This document shows positions 3,200 through 62,997 of a stretch of DNA of 64,000 nucleotides, piece by piece. How positions within the stretch are numbered: the first letter of the stretch is position 1; every line of letters begins with the position of its first letter. This DNA is from Epilithonimonas mollis (lineage in GTDB: Bacteria; Bacteroidota; Bacteroidia; Flavobacteriales; Weeksellaceae), in the NCBI RefSeq assembly GCF_900142325.1, contig NZ_FRAM01000001.1, forward strand, positions 558,001 through 622,000, written 5' to 3'. The translations under genes and the position numbers were made by a program. The notes below the pieces were generated by a model. It searched no databases, was not told the DNA's origin, and saw only the letters and a program-made list of their open reading frames with translations.

Positions 3200-3532
3200 T
3201 TATTTGGATCCCAGCAAAATCAACTCTTCAATTCTGATCTCAGTCAGCATACGCTTTACCCCTTCTTTATCATCGTAAGACCGGTAAGTCAGCTTCCCTT
3301 CTACAGCGATCTCTTTACCCTTTGTAATATATTTCTCCATAATATCAACGGTTTTTCCAAAGGCAACAAGATTGTGCCACTGCGTTTCCTCCACCTTTTC
3401 ACCGGCAGCATTGATATAAAAATCATTGGTAGCCAGGGTAACAGTTGCTTTTCTATTTCCGTTTTCGAAAGTATAAATTTCTACCTCCTTTCCTGTGTGT
3501 CCGATTAATGACACTTTGTTTCTTAATGACAT
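3200..3532 (-). CDS. ssb: single-stranded DNA-binding protein, short form
   Basis: An OB-fold SSB of 110 residues: MSLRNKVSLIGHTGKEVEI at the N-terminus, TQWHNLVAFGKTVDIMEKYI in the core and a LTYRSYDDKEG beta-hairpin. SSBs protect single-stranded DNA in replication and repair. The protein ends at ELILLGSK and has no glycine-rich linker or acidic DDDIPF-type tail, which in typical bacterial SSBs recruits partner proteins. It may therefore be an auxiliary SSB, with the full-length one encoded elsewhere; that is inference. The neighbouring HRDC gene fits a nucleic-acid theme. Confidence 0.93.
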   Translation of the reverse strand: MSLRNKVSLIGHTGKEVEIYTFENGNRKATVTLATNDFYINAAGEKVEETQWHNLVAFGKTVDIMEKYITKGKEIAVEGKLTYRSYDDKEGVKRMLTEIRIEELILLGSK

Positions 3533-3898
3533 AATAGTAATATTTTTATAATTAAACTTCTAAAGCCAGGACGTCCATGCCTGTTTCCTGATTTTACTGT
3601 TACAAATTTTCATCAAACCCGTAATCTGATTCGGTTAAAAAGTATTTATATCCGTTTGTAATCGTTTGTAATTGGATAAGAAATTTTATTTGAATGGTTA
3701 TGGAAAAATTTATAATTTAGAAACATTGAAAAACATCTTCCGTGTTATAATTATCAATTCGGAATTGACGGTTCTTGTTCACTGATTGTTCGCAGCCCGA
3801 CCTGAGTGGAGCTCTTTTTGCGGAGCGGAGCGGAACAAAAAAGCGGGAACGGAGGGCGGAAAAAGCTGCCCAAAAAATTAAATAGAAAAAAAACACAA
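3533..3898. other. intergenic region with direct repeat and class B element
   Basis: This 366-nt gap separates ssb (minus) from a zinc-ribbon gene (plus). It holds an exact tandem 10-bp repeat, CGTTTGTAAT at 3653-3662 and 3663-3672, a small 7-1-7 palindrome at 3754-3768, and the GC-rich dispersed repeat described separately at 3792-3870. I see no convincing small gene and no clear TAnnTTTG box for either flanking gene. Confidence 0.6.
3792..3870. repeat. dispersed intergenic repeat, class B copy 1
   Basis: Begins GCAGCC and ends AGCTGCC, with AGCTCTTTTT in the first half and a GGGA-rich GGCGGA core before the end. The same beginning, internal box and end are present at 61568-61670. The element is much richer in G than the surrounding AT-rich sequence and carries no gene. 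Its right edge lies 28 nt before the start of the downstream zinc-ribbon gene. Confidence 0.6.
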
Positions 3899-4254: not shown

Positions 4255-5340
4255 ATGATTTTTATTTTTCTGGTTTTATTACTCGCAGTGTCCATTTATC
4301 TTTATAATCTACCGGTTTTTGGCGGGCATTTTTCCGGCAAACGGCTGGTCCGGATGAAACTCTCTCCCAATTACATGGACGGTGTTTTTCAGAATCTCAG
4401 TGATACACCATCACTGGCTGAGGGATTCACGATGAGAAAGGTTCTTTGGGAATTTCTGACGGACAAAACCGAAAATAAAAAACCCAAGCATCCGTTGTCC
4501 TCTCAGAAAACTGATTTAAAAGACCGACCCGAGACAGAAAATTTTCTGGTTTGGATGGGACATTCTTCTTATTATTTTCAGCTTGGTGGGAAAAGATTTT
4601 TGGTGGATCCTGTTTTCAGCGGCAATGCCTCTCCTATTCCGGGAACTACGAAGGCTTTTGCCGGAAGTGATATTTACTCTGCCGGTGATTTTCCGGAAAT
4701 TGATTTCCTTATTATTTCCCACGACCATTATGACCATTTGGATTATAAAACAATAATGCTACTTAAACCAAAAATTGATCACATCATCTGTGGTCTCGGT
4801 GTTGGTTCTCATTTTGAAAAATGGGGCTTTGATGAAGATCAGATTACAGAACTGGACTGGTACGATGAATCGGAAATCGCTAAGGAATTTAAAATAACAT
4901 CTACACCTGCAAGACATTTTTCCGGTAGAAGATTCAGGAGAAACAATACACTATGGTCATCTTACGTGTTGGAAACACAGGAGCAAAAGATCTTTCTGGG
5001 TGGTGACAGCGGTTATGATTATCATTTCAAAGAAATTGGTAAAAAGTTCGGTCCTTTTGACTGGGCAATCCTGGAAAACGGACAGTACAATGAAAAATGG
5101 CGGTACATCCATACTCTGCCGGAAGAATTTGTAAAAGCTGCAGAAGATCTTAACGTCAGAAACGTATTGCCTGTACACTCCGGGAAATTTTCTCTTGCTC
5201 AGCATGCATGGAATGAGCCTTTACAAAAAGTTACTGAAAACAGCAGAGGTAAAAATTTCAGGATCGCAACACCGATGATTGGTGAAAAAGTAAATCTGAA
5301 TGATGATTCTCAAAATTTTTCTGAATGGTGGAATGCTTAA
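4255..5340 (+). CDS. membrane-anchored MBL-fold hydrolase (NAPE-PLD-like)
   Basis: A 361-residue metallo-beta-lactamase-fold hydrolase with an N-terminal hydrophobic anchor (residues 1-20). The metal-binding motif HxHxDH is seen as SHDHYDHLD (His156, His158, Asp160, His161). Downstream, ARHFSGR, GGDSGY and LENGQYN are as in the N-acylphosphatidylethanolamine phospholipase D/UlaG-like branch. This suggests hydrolysis of a phospholipid-like or phosphodiester substrate at the inner membrane; the substrate is not deducible. It starts 2 nt after the zinc-ribbon gene. Confidence 0.88.
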   Translation: MIFIFLVLLLAVSIYLYNLPVFGGHFSGKRLVRMKLSPNYMDGVFQNLSDTPSLAEGFTMRKVLWEFLTDKTENKKPKHPLSSQKTDLKDRPETENFLVWMGHSSYYFQLGGKRFLVDPVFSGNASPIPGTTKAFAGSDIYSAGDFPEIDFLIISHDHYDHLDYKTIMLLKPKIDHIICGLGVGSHFEKWGFDEDQITELDWYDESEIAKEFKITSTPARHFSGRRFRRNNTLWSSYVLETQEQKIFLGGDSGYDYHFKEIGKKFGPFDWAILENGQYNEKWRYIHTLPEEFVKAAEDLNVRNVLPVHSGKFSLAQHAWNEPLQKVTENSRGKNFRIATPMIGEKVNLNDDSQNFSEWWNA

Positions 5341-7116: not shown

Positions 7117-7180
7117 TTTATAAAATTAATGAAAGTTTGGGAATTTTGATTTGACAAAGTTTGATTTTGCAGGCAAAATC

Positions 7181-7261
7181 TATAGCCCCGATAGTAGCGG
7201 CATCCTTTTTCTTTTTTCCCAAAAAAAGAAAAAGATATAGCGGATAGCGGGATTAGGCTCC
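7181..7261 (+). repeat. dispersed intergenic repeat, class A copy 1
   Basis: The left core TATAGCCCCGATAGTAGCGG and right core GATATAGCGGATAGCGGGA flank a T-run/A-run stretch. An inverted copy with only one mismatch in the left core lies at 62821-62932. The element occupies the space between the propeller gene and the permease terminator. Confidence 0.7.
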
Positions 7262-7297: not shown

Positions 7298-8941
7298 TTA
7301 ATGTTTGTTGTCTATGTCGATATCCACATCTTGCAAGGGCTCCTGTTCTGCTTTGAAAGTTTCTCCAAATCCTCCGTTCTGAAGTTTTGAATTTCTCTTA
7401 CTGTACAAGAAATAGATTATAAATCCTAGAACTAACCAAGCGATTGAATATTTCTGAGCTTCAGGGCTTAAGTTAATTATCAAATAAACGTTGATTAGAA
7501 TCCCCAATGTTGCAATAACGGGTAAAGCCGGAACTCTGAAGTTTCTCTGAAGATTCGGTTCTTTTTTTCTTAGAATCCAAACCGCTACACATACCATTGT
7601 AAAGGCAAACAAAGTTCCGAAACTGGTCATATGTGCCAAATCGTTAATCGGGGTAAATGCCGCAACAACTGCAATCACCGCTCCTAAAATGTATAAATTC
7701 TTTTTAGGAACTCCAGCTTTGGCATCTACTTTTGAGAAAGTGGAGGGAATCAAACCATCTTTTGACATTCCCAGAAAAATTCTGGATTGTCCCATAATCA
7801 TTACCATTAGTACAGAAATTAAACCAACTGTCGCCGCAATCGTAATAATATAACCAGCCCAAGCCTGTCCGGCAATATCGAAAGCGTAAGCTACAGGCGC
7901 TTTGATGGCGTCAGGATATTTACCCAATGGATTGAAGTCTGTATAATGCATCATTCCTGTCAGAACCAAAGAAACCAAAATGTATAAAACGGTACAAACC
8001 ACCAACGATGTGATGATAGCGAAAGGAACATCTTTCTTAGGGTTAATTGCTTCACCAGCCTGAGTAGAAACGGCATCGAAACCAACATAAGCAAAGAAAA
8101 TAGCGGCGGCTCCTGCAATAATCCCTCCATAACCGTAGGCTGGTTCAGCTTTTCCGTTTTCGATGATTGTTGTAGCTTCCGGAATAAATGGTGTCCAGTT
8201 ATCAACATTGATGAAAAATACACCTGCAATAATCACAAAAATAATGGCTGAAACTTTCAGAATTACAATCGCATTGTTAGCTTTTGCTGCACCTTTTGTT
8301 CCTCTAACTAAAATCGAAATTACCAATAAAACGATAACCAATGCAGGAAGATTCAGGAACAATTTCATGTTTAAAAGTTCCGGTGCAGCATTGAAGTTAT
8401 TGATTGTTTCCTGAAAAGCCTGTAATTTTTCTAATGGCAAACCGCCTTTCGCAATTTGAGAAGTCGCTTCTCCAAAAGCTTTCTTAGCCGTTCCCGGGTC
8501 TGTAGTCATCCAATATGGCAAATGCAGACCAAACATCTTGAGTAATTTCCCAAAATATCCGGACCAGGAAACTGCAACTGTCATGGAACCCATTGCATAT
8601 TCCAGAATCAATCCCCAACCGATTATCCATGCAAAAATCTCTCCTACAGTTCCGTAGGCATAAGCGTAAGCCGAACCTTCCACCGGAAGTATGGATGCAA
8701 ATTCGGCATAGCAAAGTGCCGCGAAAACACAGGCAATGCCAGCAACCACAAAAGAAAGTGCTAAAGCAGGACCAGCGTTGTAATAAGCACCTGTACCCGT
8801 TAAAACAAAAATACCACCTCCAATGATGGCACCAATCCCGATAGCTGTTAAACTCCATTTTCCCAATACGCGTTTCAGCTGACTTTTCTTGATGTCCGCT
8901 TCGTACGCTTCCATTGGCTTTTTAATCCAAATATTTGACAT
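7298..8941 (-). CDS. APC-family cationic amino acid permease
   Basis: A 547-residue inner-membrane transporter with about 12-14 hydrophobic segments. The first helix contains GIGAIIGGGIFVLTG, the glycine-rich substrate-binding break typical of the APC superfamily. YVGFDAVSTQAGEAINPKKD in the middle is the hallmark of the CAT/YfnA amino acid permease branch. It likely imports amino acids by proton symport; specificity is unknown. Its own terminator follows, and the gap upstream separates it from a divergent sensor kinase gene, so it appears monocistronic. Confidence 0.92.
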   Translation of the reverse strand: MSNIWIKKPMEAYEADIKKSQLKRVLGKWSLTAIGIGAIIGGGIFVLTGTGAYYNAGPALALSFVVAGIACVFAALCYAEFASILPVEGSAYAYAYGTVGEIFAWIIGWGLILEYAMGSMTVAVSWSGYFGKLLKMFGLHLPYWMTTDPGTAKKAFGEATSQIAKGGLPLEKLQAFQETINNFNAAPELLNMKLFLNLPALVIVLLVISILVRGTKGAAKANNAIVILKVSAIIFVIIAGVFFINVDNWTPFIPEATTIIENGKAEPAYGYGGIIAGAAAIFFAYVGFDAVSTQAGEAINPKKDVPFAIITSLVVCTVLYILVSLVLTGMMHYTDFNPLGKYPDAIKAPVAYAFDIAGQAWAGYIITIAATVGLISVLMVMIMGQSRIFLGMSKDGLIPSTFSKVDAKAGVPKKNLYILGAVIAVVAAFTPINDLAHMTSFGTLFAFTMVCVAVWILRKKEPNLQRNFRVPALPVIATLGILINVYLIINLSPEAQKYSIAWLVLGFIIYFLYSKRNSKLQNGGFGETFKAEQEPLQDVDIDIDNKH

Positions 8942-9092
8942 AGTTTGTAAATTTTTTACCCTTTTAATAGAAAGGGCCCTTTCTTCGTTTATTTATTTTT
9001 GAATTACGAAAATATTAAAAAAATATCATCCTTAACATTTTTTAACTAATTTATTTTGATTTTCGTTACCAGTAATTATTATTAGCAGGATG

Positions 9093-9123
9093 TTTTCTAT
9101 CCCAGAAAAGACTTTTCTGTCCC
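9093..9123 (+). promoter_or_regulatory. paired direct-repeat operator, probable LytTR site 1
   Basis: TTTTCTATCCC (9093-9103) and TTTTCTGTCCC (9113-9123) are direct repeats with a 20-bp period. Their end lies exactly 29 nt before the TAAATTTG -7 box of the kinase/regulator operon. LytTR-type regulators bind two short direct repeats about two helical turns apart, and a LytTR regulator is encoded in this operon, so autoregulation is the simplest reading. That link is inference. Confidence 0.6.
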
Positions 9124-9131
9124 AAAGAATA

Positions 9132-9160
9132 TTGATTAGTGAAGAGATTTTTTAAATTTG
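9132..9160 (+). promoter_or_regulatory. promoter of the kinase/LytTR operon
   Basis: TTG at 9132-9134, an 18-nt spacer and TAAATTTG at 9153-9160 match the Bacteroidetes -33/-7 consensus. The start codon at 9180 leaves a leader of roughly 10-14 nt. Confidence 0.7.
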
Positions 9161-9179
9161 GCGTGTTGATAATATTTTC

Positions 9180-10885
9180 ATGAAATTATTGTATAGATTA
9201 TTGGTTTTCTGTCTTTTGTTAAGTGGATATATTGTTGTGGCTCAAGATATTTCTGTAGCAGAAGAAATTAAGAAAATCGATAGTCTTATTGAAAATTATC
9301 AATTTGAACTTGCTCAGAAAAAAACAGACAGCCTTTACAAGACAAAAACAGGTAAAAGTCAATTTTTAGAAGTCCGTTTCCGACAAGCCTTGTTACTTGA
9401 CAAACAAGAAGAATCTTCCGTAGAATCTCTAAAGGTTTTATTAAGCATAATAGATGATTCTGAAAATGCAGGTTTACATTCGCTCTCCTGCAGAATATAT
9501 TTATTAACTGCTTTAGCTTATGAAAAGTCGCAGAATTTTGAATTGACAAACCTCTAAACAAAGCTTATAAAACATATAAAGCTTATCATTTGGAAGAATT
9601 GTATAGTACTTATTGTATCAGAAGAAGCTCACTTTATCGATTTGTAGGCAAGTATGATTTAATGTATTCTTATGCAAGGCTGGCAGAAAAGTATGCGGAA
9701 AAGTATCAGAACAAAAAGGATCTGGAAGATTCTTATCTGTTAATGGGTGTTTATATGTCCAAAAATAAAAATTATGCAAAAACCTTAGAGTATAATTTCA
9801 AAATTTTAAAACTTAACAATAAAAATTATCAGCGCAGTAAAATAGCACTTGACTATAATAACATATCTTATGTCTATGTCATAATGAAAGATTATCCAAA
9901 AGCATTGTTATACAGTGACTCTGCGTATGTTTTTTATAATGATGCAGATTTAATGTATAAAGATTATCTATCGGAGTCCAGATATAAAGCATTTGAAGGC
10001 TTGGGAAATACGGATTCTGCATATCATTATTTCAAACAATACCACGATAATGTTCAGGCTCTGACTGCAAAAGAAGAAAAACTGAAGATTAAAAAATTAG
10101 AAAATCAATATCAAAGTGATAAAAGAGAAGACACTATAAAAGATAAGGACAACCAAATGATTCTGATTGGCAGTTTGTTAGCAGTTATAGCAATTGCCAC
10201 AATCCTTTTATTTGGGAAAAACAGACAAATCAACCATCGGAATAAAATCATTAATCAGCAATTAGGTGAATTGACCCAACTTCTGAAACAAAAACAATTT
10301 CTATTATCCGAACTTCAACACAGAGTTAAAAATAATCTACAACATGTCATTAGCATTCTGGAAATCCAAAAAGAGTCGGCGGATTTCAATAATATTGAGG
10401 AATTGATAAGAGGCAATCAGAACCGCATCCACTCTATGGCATTGCTCCACAAAAAACTGAATGTCTCTGATAATGTAAATGATGTAGATTTTACAAGATA
10501 CATCACCGAGCTTTCTGAAATCGTGAAAGAATCTTACGATAATCATCAGAAAAAAATCAATCTCAATATCAATTGTGATATAGAAACCATAACCATCGAG
10601 AAAGCATTGCCAATTGGATTCATTCTAGTGGAACTTATAAGCAATAGTATGAAACACGCTTTCAAGAACCGAAATATTGGCATCATCAACATCGAGATTA
10701 CTGAAGGAAAAAATGGACAAAAAAATAAGTTTTATTATTCCGACAATGGTAATGGATTTGATTTTAATCAAAAGAATGAAAAAGGATTAGGCCTTGAGAT
10801 CACGAAAGGTTTGATAGACCAAATTGACGGAATTGTAGAAACAAAAACAGACAATGGATTCGAATTAATAATATATTTCAAATAA
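9180..10885 (+). pseudogene. TPR sensor histidine kinase (HisKA_2), frameshifted
   Basis: Two reading frames together encode one sensor kinase. Frame one (9180-9557) has a signal peptide ending VVAQ and helical repeats. Frame two (open from 9542 to 10885) continues the TPR-like repeats, then a membrane helix (ILIGSLLAVIAIATILLF), a HisKA_2 dimerization domain with the phospho-acceptor in ELQHRVKNNLQH (His codon at 10319), and a HATPase domain (ELISNSMKHAF, DNGNGF, GLGLEI). The intact form would be an inner-membrane kinase with a periplasmic TPR sensor that phosphorylates the adjacent LytTR regulator 6 nt downstream. As written, a minus-one shift separates sensor from kinase. It could be a true mutation or a sequencing error. 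Confidence 0.85.
9542..9554 (+). other. frameshift site in the kinase gene
   Basis: The first frame stops at TAA 9555-9557, and the second frame is closed by TGA at 9539-9541, so the shift must fall within these 13 nt. Restoring one A in the short run of ACAAACC (or in GAATTGAC) gives continuous protein reading ...FE(L/I)(T/D)KPLNKAYKTYKAYHLEEL. There is no slippery heptamer in the right phase, so programmed frameshifting is unlikely. Confidence 0.8.
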
Positions 10886-10891
10886 AAAACT

Positions 10892-11581
10892 ATGACCAAC
10901 AAATCAATTTTAATAGTAGAAGATGACTTTCTCAATCGGCGGATTTCCAAAAAAGTATTAGCAGAAAACGGATATGAGGTTTTCGAAGCCAAAAATGCCA
11001 AGGAAGCTTTGGAAATATTGCAAAAAGAATCATTGGCACTTATTGTTTTAGATATTAATCTTGGGGAAAATGAGCAAGACGGAATTTCTCTGGGACAACA
11101 TATTAAAGACAAATATTCTGTTCCGTTTATCTATCTCACGGCTTATGAAAATCCGGAGATCATAGAAAAGGCAGTTTCCACCTCGCCGTATTCTTACCTC
11201 ACAAAGCCATTCAAAAGCAGTGACTTGATTGCCTCTGCAGAAATTGCAATTCGCCAATCTTCGGATATTCCGAAACATAAACCTTTTATCTATGTAAAAG
11301 ATGGGGATTACAATGTAGAATTAGCGACAGAAAACATCAATTATATTGAATCTGATGGCAATTATCTTTTGTTTTATACCGATGAGAAAATTTACAAATG
11401 CAGATCAAGTATAAAAAACATTTTAAATGAACTTTCTAATTCGAATTTTGTGCAGACACACAGAGCTTATATTGTAAATAAGAATAAGATAAAAAAATTC
11501 AGCAATAAAAATGTTATGATCAAGAATAACTTGATTCCGGTTTCAGAAAATTATTTAGAAATACTAAAGCAATTTCTTTGA
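10892..11581 (+). CDS. LytTR-family response regulator
   Basis: A 229-residue two-component regulator. The receiver domain (residues 1-120) has the acidic pocket ILIVEDD, the phospho-acceptor Asp54 in IVLDINLG, the conserved threonine in YLTAY and the lysine in LTKPF. The C-terminal LytTR DNA-binding domain (about 130-229) shows INYIESDGNYLLFYT and FVQTHRAYIVNKNKIKKF. It starts 6 nt after the kinase gene, so the two form one operon. LytTR domains recognise paired short direct repeats; two such pairs with identical spacing lie upstream of this operon (9093) and upstream of the next gene (11689), making those the likely targets. Confidence 0.93.
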   Translation: MTNKSILIVEDDFLNRRISKKVLAENGYEVFEAKNAKEALEILQKESLALIVLDINLGENEQDGISLGQHIKDKYSVPFIYLTAYENPEIIEKAVSTSPYSYLTKPFKSSDLIASAEIAIRQSSDIPKHKPFIYVKDGDYNVELATENINYIESDGNYLLFYTDEKIYKCRSSIKNILNELSNSNFVQTHRAYIVNKNKIKKFSNKNVMIKNNLIPVSENYLEILKQFL

Positions 11582-11688
11582 TAATTTCAGGATTATTTTT
11601 TTTTAATTATAAAGAGTAAAGCGTTTTGATATTAATATTAGAACGCTTTATTTTTTGACAAAATTCATCAATAAATCAATACAATTCA

Positions 11689-11719
11689 TTTTCTATCCCA
11701 AAAATCGCCATTCTATCCC
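11689..11719 (+). promoter_or_regulatory. paired direct-repeat operator, probable LytTR site 2
   Basis: TTTTCTATCCC (11689-11699) and an ATTCTATCCC copy (11710-11719) repeat with the same 20-bp period as at 9093-9123. The second copy ends 29 nt before a CATATTTG box (11749-11756), exactly as at the kinase promoter. No -33 TTG is present here, which fits an activator-dependent promoter for the T9SS-secreted protein. Confidence 0.6.
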
Positions 11720-11748
11720 AGAAATTTCAAAATGCAAAGGCAGGTTTC

Positions 11749-11756
11749 CATATTTG
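11749..11756 (+). promoter_or_regulatory. candidate -7 box of the T9SS protein gene
   Basis: CATATTTG differs from TAnnTTTG at one position. The resulting leader would be about 58 nt. Support comes mainly from its position relative to the direct repeats, which matches the kinase promoter exactly. Confidence 0.45.
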
Positions 11757-11819
11757 TGATACAATAACGCAGGTAGCCGAAAATGCGACCCTAGAGTAGG
11801 CAAAAAAAAATTAATCACT

Positions 11820-12686
11820 ATGAAAAAAATCTATTTCAGAAAAACAAAAACTGCATTAGCAACTTTAATGCTTCTACCATTTTTCTCATTTGCTCAGATC
11901 AATCTGCTACAAACTACCAACAATGTTGTTGCAGCAAATGGTGTTCAATCTTGTGGTGCAGGAGGTAATGCTACCAATGCAACTTCCTTTGCGCGCTTGT
12001 ACAATCTTACTTCTTTGGGTTACAGCAGTTTTGCAGTTACTAAGGTAAGTTTTGCGGTTCAAGGTTTTCAACTGGGAACAGCAACTACTTTCCCTGTTAA
12101 TGTAGAGGTTTACTCTAGCACAGGAGGAGCTGTTACCAATAATCTTACTTTAAGAGCTACAGCTACAGTTAATATAACAGCTTCTATGGTAGGTACAGTT
12201 GTTGAGGTTCCTCTGGCTGCCCCAGTATCTGTTTCATCACCAGAGATGTTGATTGTAGTTTCTGCACCAAATGGTGGACCGACTTCAACAGGCTTTTACC
12301 TTGGCGGTAACTCGAATGGTCAAACAGCAACGGGCTACATAAAAGCAAGTGCTTGCGGAGCAAACGATTATATGACTTTTGCGGCTATAGGAAATGCAAA
12401 TGCTCATATCGTGCTATTCCCTACAGGAAATGCAACATTAGGTGTAGAAAATTTGGATTCTTCTAATAAAAATATTTCACTTTATCCAAATCCTGTAAAA
12501 TCTATTGCTAATTTCTCCGAAGAAGTTTCCAATATCAAAATCACTGACTTATCAGGAAGAACAATAAAACAAATCTCAACTTCTGCAAAATCTGTTGATG
12601 TGGCAACTTTGGAAAACGGAACTTACGTCATCACAGCAACCACAAAAGCTGGTAATATGGTAACTAAAAAATTAGTAAAAGAATAA
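11820..12686 (+). CDS. T9SS-secreted surface protein
   Basis: A 288-residue exported protein with a signal peptide (MKKIYFRKTKTALATLMLL, cleavage near SFAQ) and a beta-rich middle domain that I do not recognise (threonine- and valine-rich strands, two cysteines around residues 44 and 180). A type A type-IX sorting domain of about 75 residues follows: ISLYPNPVKS, IKITDLSGRTIKQ, LENGTYVITATTKAG. The protein would be exported by Sec, then moved across the outer membrane by the gliding-associated T9SS. The upstream paired repeats suggest control by the neighbouring LytTR regulator. A hairpin terminator follows. Confidence 0.88.
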   Translation: MKKIYFRKTKTALATLMLLPFFSFAQINLLQTTNNVVAANGVQSCGAGGNATNATSFARLYNLTSLGYSSFAVTKVSFAVQGFQLGTATTFPVNVEVYSSTGGAVTNNLTLRATATVNITASMVGTVVEVPLAAPVSVSSPEMLIVVSAPNGGPTSTGFYLGGNSNGQTATGYIKASACGANDYMTFAAIGNANAHIVLFPTGNATLGVENLDSSNKNISLYPNPVKSIANFSEEVSNIKITDLSGRTIKQISTSAKSVDVATLENGTYVITATTKAGNMVTKKLVKE

Positions 12687-15753: not shown

Positions 15754-17529
15754 ATGAAAAAACCTCTACTGTCTTTAGCAATAACTAGTTTTCTTGCTAT
15801 TAACCTTCAAGCTCAGGTAAGTGTGGATGCCACAGCAGGAACCACTACTGCAACTTACACTACGTTAAAAGGTGCATTTGATGCCATCAATGCAGGAACC
15901 CATCAAGGAGCGATTACGATTAGCCTAACCGCAAACACAACAGAAACCTCAAGTGCTATACTGAACGCAAGCACAGGCACAGCAAGCTATACTTCTGTAT
16001 TGATAAAGCCTGCAACAGGAGTTACTGCCTCTATTACAAGTGCAGACACCGTGGCCACTATCAAATTTAACGGAGCCGACAATGTAACTATCGACGGAAG
16101 CAACAACGGCTCTTCTTCAAGAAACTTAACGATCAACAATACTTTTGTTGCGACAGCAGGCACTACACCCGTTGTTCTTTGGGTATCAAGTACGTTAACA
16201 GATGGAGCAGAAAATATCACCATCAAAAACACCAATGTTGCAGGATCTTCAGGAACAGGAACAATCGGAGGCGTAATAGTTTCTGGAACAACTTTAGCAG
16301 CAGCTGAATTTCCTAACAATAATTTTTCCGCCATCAACAATACATTTGTAAGAGCTCAGAACGGTATTTTTGCTATAGGAAATGCTGCAAATACTGATAC
16401 AGGATGGATCATCAGGAATAATGAAATCGGCTCTACAGTAGCAGCAAATAAGATGCTGTACAGAGGAATTGCCGTACAAAATGCCAAAAACTTCGAGGTA
16501 AGTGGTAACGTTATCAAAGGTGTAGCTTTGCCTGCAACTTCCACTAATACAACACAAGGTATATTACTAGGCGCAGCAGTGACCAATGGAAACATCTTTA
16601 ACAACAGAATCTCCGACATCAAGCAACCAAACACTTCCGGCTACGGAGCCGTAGGGCTCTATGTCAACTCTAGTGTTGCCGCATCTAACTTATTAATTTA
16701 CAACAACGTAATCAATGACGTTGCTGGTACAGGATACTCTCTAAGTGGAGGATTAGCTGATAATGGTAATGGTATTGTCCTTGCCAATGGTGGTGGTTTT
16801 AAATTATATTACAACACAGTAGTTATGGATACCAACCAGACCAATGCCGGGCGACCTTCTGCTTTAAATATTCTTAGCACAGTTACTGCAGCTGCGTCAA
16901 TCGACGTCAGAAACAATATCTTTGTCAACAAACAAACACAGGCAGGAGACAGATATACGATCTATTCCGGCGGTACAAACACTGTTTTCTCTAATATTAA
17001 TTACAACGATTACTATAGCACAGGTGCCAACCTGGCATACATCGGATCTGCAAGAGCTACCTTAGCAAACCTGCAGACTGGATTCGGGGGCAATGCTAAT
17101 TCGATCAACGTTCTTCCAGTGTTTGCGTCTGCAACTACTCTGGATATCGCAACCACAGGCAATGCGGCACTTGACAACAAAGGAACACCTGTAGCCGAAG
17201 TTACTGTAGATATCAATGGTAATACAAGAAGTTCTACAACACCGGATCTTGGTGGTTATGAATTTACAGACATCACTTTAGCAGTTCAGGATATCAGAGG
17301 CACTAAGATCTCTTATCACCCTAACCCAGTTATAGACTATCTGCAGATCAGCAATGACAATAAGATCAAGAATGTAGAAGTTTACAACGCATCCGGACAG
17401 GCACTGAGCAATGTTAGCATCAATTCTGAAAAAGGTTCTGTTGACATGAAGCAATTACCTGCTGGTGTTTATATGCTGAAAGTAAATTCTGAAAAACAAT
17501 CAGAAACTATAAAAGTTATCAAAAAATAA
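15754..17529 (+). CDS. T9SS-secreted right-handed beta-helix protein
   Basis: A 591-residue secreted protein. A signal peptide ends near LQAQ. TYTTLKGAFDAINAGTHQGAITI is the start of a pectin-lyase-like parallel beta-helix, whose coils appear as repeated NVTIDGSNNGSS, NITIKNTNV, NWIIRNNEIG-like and NVINDVAGT units rich in Asn and Thr. An Asn-ladder fold of this type usually binds or cleaves polysaccharide, but no catalytic residues stand out. The end is a type A T9SS sorting domain (ISYHPNPVIDYLQIS, VEVYNASGQ, LPAGVYMLKV). A strong terminator follows. Confidence 0.88.
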   Translation: MKKPLLSLAITSFLAINLQAQVSVDATAGTTTATYTTLKGAFDAINAGTHQGAITISLTANTTETSSAILNASTGTASYTSVLIKPATGVTASITSADTVATIKFNGADNVTIDGSNNGSSSRNLTINNTFVATAGTTPVVLWVSSTLTDGAENITIKNTNVAGSSGTGTIGGVIVSGTTLAAAEFPNNNFSAINNTFVRAQNGIFAIGNAANTDTGWIIRNNEIGSTVAANKMLYRGIAVQNAKNFEVSGNVIKGVALPATSTNTTQGILLGAAVTNGNIFNNRISDIKQPNTSGYGAVGLYVNSSVAASNLLIYNNVINDVAGTGYSLSGGLADNGNGIVLANGGGFKLYYNTVVMDTNQTNAGRPSALNILSTVTAAASIDVRNNIFVNKQTQAGDRYTIYSGGTNTVFSNINYNDYYSTGANLAYIGSARATLANLQTGFGGNANSINVLPVFASATTLDIATTGNAALDNKGTPVAEVTVDINGNTRSSTTPDLGGYEFTDITLAVQDIRGTKISYHPNPVIDYLQISNDNKIKNVEVYNASGQALSNVSINSEKGSVDMKQLPAGVYMLKVNSEKQSETIKVIKK

Positions 17530-62820: not shown

Positions 62821-62932
62821 GGAGCTGTTTCCCGCTATCCGCTATATCTTTTTTGTTTTTAGAATATTTGTATTTCTCAAAGAAAGTGAGGCATAAAAAA
62901 CAAAAAAAGAAGCCGCTTCTATCGGGGCTATA
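62821..62932 (-). repeat. dispersed intergenic repeat, class A copy 2 (inverted)
   Basis: Read on the minus strand: TATAGCCCCGATAGAAGCGG, a long A/T-rich centre, and GATATAGCGGATAGCGGGA. The outer parts match copy 1 (7181-7261) with a single difference in the left core. A reading frame of 72 residues across it is an artefact of the repeat. Confidence 0.7.
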
Positions 62933-62997
62933 GGTTTTATCATCCAATCAAAAATTCCCGAAAATAGAAACTTCGGGAATTGAATTTTTAAAATATT

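Follow-up and report, generated by a model that had tools for sequence, protein, structure and literature searches.

Which protein is likely to act on two nearly identical pairs of direct repeats that lie before and after a two-component operon in Epilithonimonas mollis? The pairs are found in a stretch of 64,000 nucleotides (contig NZ_FRAM01000001.1, positions 558,001 to 622,000), referred to here as the window. One pair, operator A, precedes the genes for a sensor kinase and for a response regulator with a receiver (REC) and a LytTR domain. The other pair, operator B, follows the regulator gene (lytTR) and precedes the gene of a protein with a sorting domain of the type IX secretion system (T9SS), called the cargo. 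Judged by sequence, the LytTR regulator whose gene lies between the pairs very probably binds them, and the locus would be an autoactivated module that drives a secreted protein. A sequence-only reading of the window had proposed such a self-regulating circuit controlling a surface protein. This proposal is supported by the conservation of the repeats and the regulator and by a second clade that has the twin layout with its own motif.

Operator A (9095..9123, forward strand) is the pair TTCTATCCC-N11-TTCTGTCCC, with its repeats at 9095-9103 and 9115-9123, upstream of the kinase/lytTR operon. Operator B (11691..11719, forward strand) is the pair TTCTATCCC-N11-TTCTATCCC, with its repeats at 11691-11699 and 11711-11719, upstream of the cargo gene. 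The period is 20 in both. The sequence-only reading had the period right; its starts, 9093 and 11689, took in two flanking bases. It also placed a -7 box 29 nt from the second repeat at each site, and this distance holds. The kinase promoter has the -7-like box TAAATTTG (9153..9160, forward strand) and the cargo promoter the off-consensus -7-like box CATATTTG (11749..11756, forward strand). The pattern TTCTRTCCC-N11-TTCTRTCCC matches the window twice at up to one mismatch, against 0.02 expected, and none of 100 shuffles reaches two matches. At up to three mismatches there are three matches, against 0.82 expected. The whole 3.7 Mb genome contains seven matches at up to two mismatches, of which only operators A and B are free of mismatches; the other five have two. 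A chance origin of the pairs is excluded.

The regulator gene (10892..11581, forward strand) encodes a protein of 229 aa that matches Response_reg with 80.7 bits and LytTR with 64.9 bits (cut-off 22.6). The cargo gene (11820..12686, forward strand) encodes 288 aa with a type IX (type A) C-terminal sorting domain (Por_Secre_tail, PF18962, 48.1 bits; TIGR04183, 45.1 bits). These domain matches agree with the earlier placement of the pairs on either side of a kinase/LytTR operon, the second before the gene of a T9SS-sorted protein. In a search that covered SprA among the T9SS components, a 2362-aa frame of the same genome matches SprA_N with 519 bits. The AlphaFold2 model of the cargo is poor (mean pLDDT 49.5).

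Orthologues of the regulator are found in Flavobacteriaceae bacterium PS02293 (locus L050, 84% by tblastn) and in the genomes G001 (77%), G012 (76%) and G074 (68%). More distant orthologues are found in a Saprospiraceae metagenome-assembled genome (L051, 57%) and in G146, of another family (42%). Among 395 genomes drawn from the order, the regulator has matches at E 1e-40 in three only (the window's own, G012 and G146), so this module, called clade I here, is rare. In a sample of 320 genomes of the family, the mismatch-free pair is present in all four genomes that carry a LytTR orthologue of at least 68%, the window's own included, and in 2 of the 316 others (G236 and G343). This motif search in related genomes was the test that the sequence-only reading had set for itself, and the repeats are kept with the regulator. 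The same pattern at up to one mismatch was rejected as a family-wide marker. It matches 67 of the 320 genomes and its backward-read control also matches many; these matches are mostly background, so only mismatch-free matches and synteny are counted. An extended pattern with a 12-nt spacer (period 21) and three mismatches gives about as many matches as its backward controls (for example, four against five in G639) and is uninformative on period-20 pairs in G639, G146, G074 and G170.

In the window, L050, L043 (G012) and L045 (G001), one pair lies before the kinase operon, where the position of operator A is kept, and another lies before the gene after lytTR. A third pair in L050 precedes another type IX gene. 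With the -7-like box loosely defined (CAnnTTTG, AAnnTTTG and T/CAnnTTTA are also admitted), nine of the 11 clade I pairs are 29 nt from the box and one is 30 nt from it, and L044, a second locus of G012, has no acceptable box.

A second group of regulators, clade II, is 26-28% identical to the regulator of the window and has a different operator word, TTCAGAACA. The LytTR domain is above the cut-off in all four clade II regulators tested. All seven clade II loci examined (L194, L206, L208, L211, L239, L282 and L286) have one pair before the kinase operon and one before the gene after lytTR. The 14 pairs have a lag of 20 or 21, and the distance from pair to -7-like box is 28 nt in every one. 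The exact clade II pattern has eight matches in the 320 family genomes, seven of them beside its kinase/regulator genes, and the backward control has one.

The recurrence of the layout bears on the idea that one promoter segment was recently duplicated and that one of the two resulting pairs plays no part in regulation. Between loci, cargo promoters are alike over their full length, leader included, as a copied segment would be. The kinase and cargo promoters of one locus, however, share mainly the repeats, the spacing and the -7 position. Orthologous loci also retain both pairs, and clade II has the arrangement again, which makes such a duplication extremely unlikely.

Repeat pairs with similar geometry are also present beside other LytTR genes. 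A de novo scan of 80 more REC-LytTR loci, with 264 upstream regions and 165 boxes, searched for direct repeats of 9 nt whose end lies 26-32 nt from a downstream [TC]AnnTTTG box; lags of 12-32 were tried. It finds nine promoter-anchored pairs, of which seven have a lag of 20 or 21 (21 lags tried). Five of these seven, from four loci, belong to clade II, and the other two are from L210 and L232. In other distance windows, the LytTR loci give at most three matches at lags 20-21, against seven at 26-32 nt. The same scan of a control set (102 loci and the rest of the window; 206 regions and 122 boxes, against 165) gives two matches, at lags 16 and 22. This control is imperfect since its loci come from near-miss motif matches, DUF805b matches and receiver-domain relatives and are partly alike. 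A generic scan for lags in 247 upstream regions was set aside for the promoter-anchored scan because its lag-21 excess is inflated by simple repeats (L182 and L193).

In a stricter test on 23 kinase-LytTR loci with a downstream gene on the same strand, the same repeat is found on both sides in eight, all with a lag of 20 or 21. In the permuted-pair null of this test, 11% reach a score of at least 30, nearly all at lags 20-22. Same-clade loci were kept in this null, so that the 11% reflects shared motifs and not noise.

Single REC-LytTR loci contain further pairs. In L164, at about 4280-4320, the pair ACCGTTCGCAACA has a period of 21 and is close to the AlgR box CCGTTCGTC (PMC4064291). The first 237 bases of L236 (the same as L035) hold the pair TTTGCGTATCA, with a period of 22. 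In L232 (G057, 3420-3584), a AAATAGACG pair with a period of 20 lies in the region from which a type IX gene and a LytTR-kinase operon diverge.

Several observations weigh against the assignment of the pairs to the regulator between them, or limit it. The repeat departs from the LytTR consensus that is usually quoted. G074 has a single pair, located ahead of a cluster of three genes that is upstream of the kinase (the first product of the cluster is lipoprotein-like by eye), and none directly before the kinase. No such pair is present within the 12.7 kb surrounding the Saprospiraceae orthologue, and G146 has only a degenerate pair (three mismatches) between lytTR and the next gene and none before the kinase. 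By the strict test, 15 of the 23 kinase-LytTR loci have no shared pair; one of these, L239, was dropped by the G+C filter of the test and has its pairs by the pattern. Six of the seven clade II loci are from the genus of the window, and the 14 clade II pairs are therefore not independent events.

The kinase gene is also broken in this genome. The sequence-only reading was correct that a kinase/LytTR operon is present; the kinase is not one open frame. Its N-terminal piece (9180..9557, forward strand) has a signal peptide by eye and no Pfam match, and ends at a frameshift. Its C-terminal piece (9590..10885, forward strand) has a transmembrane stretch by eye, HisKA_2 above the cut-off and HATPase_c at 23.1 bits, below the cut-off of 26.4. 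In alignment with three orthologues, the gene is 4 nt short in the region 9540-9600. The loss may be real decay or an assembly error. Since the gene is frameshifted here, signalling may be lost or altered.

A last adverse point is an orphan copy of the cargo promoter in G170 (L068). This copy has one mismatch, a gap of 29 and a similar leader, and the genome has no close LytTR orthologue at E 1e-25. Such a copy would fit a reading in which the repeats are sites of another, unlinked regulator of both genes. Presence of the motif nevertheless tracks the LytTR gene, and two LytTR clades with two motifs have nearly the same geometry. In G012, a third copy lies about 100 bp past a stand-alone LytTR-domain frame. 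On these grounds an unlinked regulator is very unlikely, and binding by the adjacent LytTR protein is preferred.

The promoters themselves bear on the direction of control. The flavobacterial -7 box is located at -12 to -5 (PMC9723704), which places the clade I repeats near -70 to -42. We infer that this position suits activation. In the window, the kinase promoter has TTG at -33 with an 18-nt spacer and the cargo promoter lacks it. The sequence-only reading had noted the missing -33 element of the second promoter and taken it as a sign of activation. The element is indeed missing; the cargo promoter is not set apart by this, because TTG is rare in both kinds of promoter. It is absent from the other three clade I kinase promoters (that is, from three of four) and from all cargo promoters compared, and is present in two of seven clade II kinase promoters. 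The -7 boxes differ more regularly. TAnnTTTG is found in all four clade I and six of seven clade II kinase promoters (10 of 11). After lytTR, the box is CATATTTG in clade I and TAnnTTTA in six of the seven clade II loci. There are two exceptions: the box pattern is reversed in L194, and the G074 promoter has the consensus box.

If the regulator were a repressor, the pairs would still be LytTR operators, and the module would be silent until a kinase signal released it. The kinase promoter, with its consensus -7 box and, in the window, a -33 TTG, could work unaided, and operator position alone is no proof of activation. The pairs, however, are clear of the -7 box, with their ends 28-30 nt upstream. 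The -33 TTG is mostly absent in both clades and most cargo promoters have an off-consensus -7 box, as would be the case if these promoters were activated. LytTR autoregulation at such sites in Streptococcus mutans is positive (PMC6193735). Repression is thus unlikely, and activation is the direction assumed in the scheme that follows.

In this scheme, the HisKA_2 sensor kinase, which has weak TPR-like matches (a weak TPR match is found in the intact kinase orthologue of L050), would phosphorylate the REC-LytTR regulator in response to a putative signal. A regulator dimer would then bind both repeats, which at a period of 20, about two helical turns, would lie on the same face of the DNA. The bound dimer would sit immediately upstream of where the -33 element, weak or absent here, would be, and recruit RNA polymerase. 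Binding at operator A would give positive autoregulation. Binding at operator B would turn on the cargo gene next to it, and the protein, sorted by the type IX system, would be displayed or released. With its weaker -7 box, the cargo promoter should depend more on the activator.

A DUF805b-like cis RNA element (Rfam RF02914) lies in the 5' leader of the cargo gene (11767..11802, forward strand) and starts about 5 nt past the start site inferred from the -7 box. Its 32.1 bits are below the gathering score of 35.6, and the elements in the cargo leaders of relatives are above it (40.1 bits in G001 and 39.7 bits in G012). DUF805b is found in 262 of the 320 family genomes, with up to 20 matches per genome, and is too widespread to be the common factor of these loci. 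Of 60 elements inspected by eye, a TTCTRTCCC pair lies upstream in three only (L135, L141 and L156), all of this module. Folding of the leader RNA shows no clear gain over shuffles (z 0.22, -0.27 and -1.88). No paper on DUF805b was found in a search of open-licence full text. Two Flavo-1 RNAs are also present in the window, at 7180-7258 (forward strand, 76.7 bits) and 62824-62933 (reverse strand, 65.4 bits).

The gene behind the second operator is not conserved. It encodes the 288-aa type IX protein in the window, a 972-aa leucine-rich type IX protein in G012 and, in L050, a 615-aa protein that matches PI-PLC-X and B_lectin with scores under the cut-offs; in G001 (L045) it runs off the contig. 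L044 has a 648-aa C39-peptidase-like protein. The 288-aa and 972-aa cargo proteins align significantly in the C-terminal region only, and the promoters and leaders of their genes align closely. In the five clade II loci tested, the cargo is a type IX protein (L206, L208 and L211), a class 3 lipase followed by a type IX gene (L194) or a PI-PLC-C1 protein (L239). L044 (contig C6 of G012, 8117-11941) comprises a stand-alone LytTR-domain frame, an operator, the C39-like protein and a shortened 288-aa cargo homologue. Within the window, a second protein with a type IX sorting domain is encoded nearby (15754-17529), without this operator.

The surrounding gene order, HAD-YCF48-APC permease-pnuC-...-NMO-HipA, is widely kept in the genus (these names are labels by resemblance). 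In the window, G012 and L050, the permease gene and pnuC flank the clade I module; in G001, only the kinase side is present before the contig ends. In all 20 other congeners examined, this site is empty, and the permease gene and pnuC adjoin, 134-154 bp apart. Clade II modules are located a few genes away, after NMO, in G005, G007, G009, G016 and G022. HipA is on the far side of the module in G009 and G022, where the stretch reaches. G015 retains a kinase frame alone at the clade II site, and in G004 the module is elsewhere. By eye, no target-site duplication is evident at the module. The module is accessory, with a cargo that appears to have been exchanged over evolution while the promoter and the regulator stay.

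More broadly, it is rather likely that flavobacteria carry exchangeable cassettes of a HisKA_2 kinase, a REC-LytTR regulator and at least one secreted or enzymatic cargo gene. Such cassettes would have twin operators with a period of 20-21 that lie 28-29 nt before the -7 box, and a clade-specific operator word matched to their own LytTR domain. The cargo would be swapped behind a conserved promoter, and different cassettes would occupy neighbouring sites of one genomic hot spot. If this is correct, natural pairs of regulator and operator would form a series from which the LytTR code of DNA recognition could be read. That the cargo behind one kind of switch is exchanged, among type IX proteins, a class 3 lipase, phospholipase-like and C39-like proteins, suggests a route by which surface or secreted proteins are re-equipped in these bacteria. 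The regulator, its own promoter and the target promoter lie within 3 kb, and matched operators occur in two distant clades. The operator, the dependence and the specificity are therefore predictable before any experiment, and the layout is easy to test at the bench.

Paired repeats of this kind have precedents. Known LytTR sites consist of two repeats of 9-11 nt with spacers of 11-13 nt and have no common consensus (PMC4847170). The pairs described here have 9-nt repeats with a spacer of 11 nt in clade I and of 11 or 12 nt in clade II. They lie upstream of the core promoter, and in the window the LytTR gene (64.9 bits) is between them. In LytTR regulatory systems (LRS), such as HdrRM and BrsRM of Streptococcus mutans and the LRS-like operons of Bacteroides, paired repeats before the operon of the LytTR regulator mediate positive autoregulation, and other genes are also controlled (PMC6193735). 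In the Bacteroides operons, repeats of 11 bp lie upstream of TATCTTTG boxes (PMC6193735). The window module resembles the LRS in its direct repeats before the promoter of the regulator's own operon (operator A) and in the positive autoregulation and control of a further gene proposed for it. In an LRS, a membrane inhibitor holds the LytTR protein; the regulator here has a receiver domain and a HisKA_2 kinase partner, and the module is therefore not an LRS. The window module also differs in that its second operator precedes a secreted cargo, in its repeat sequence and in the distance from repeat to -7 box, which is 29 nt here and 34 nt in the LRS (our arithmetic from Table 3 of PMC6193735).

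In open-licence full text, no title or abstract start found in the search announces LytTR control of a type IX cargo or this twin-operator module. Other close known systems are AgrA, at agr P2/P3, and two-component systems of the YpdAB type (PMC4227749, PMC4847170). Both have a LytTR response regulator and two direct repeats upstream of target promoters, and AgrA feeds back on its own operon, as is proposed for the window module. They differ from it in kinase family, which is LytS-type in YpdA and HisKA_2 in the window, and in the type IX sorting of the window cargo. Repeat-pair LytTR operators are known, and the module with twin operators and a secreted cargo looks new.

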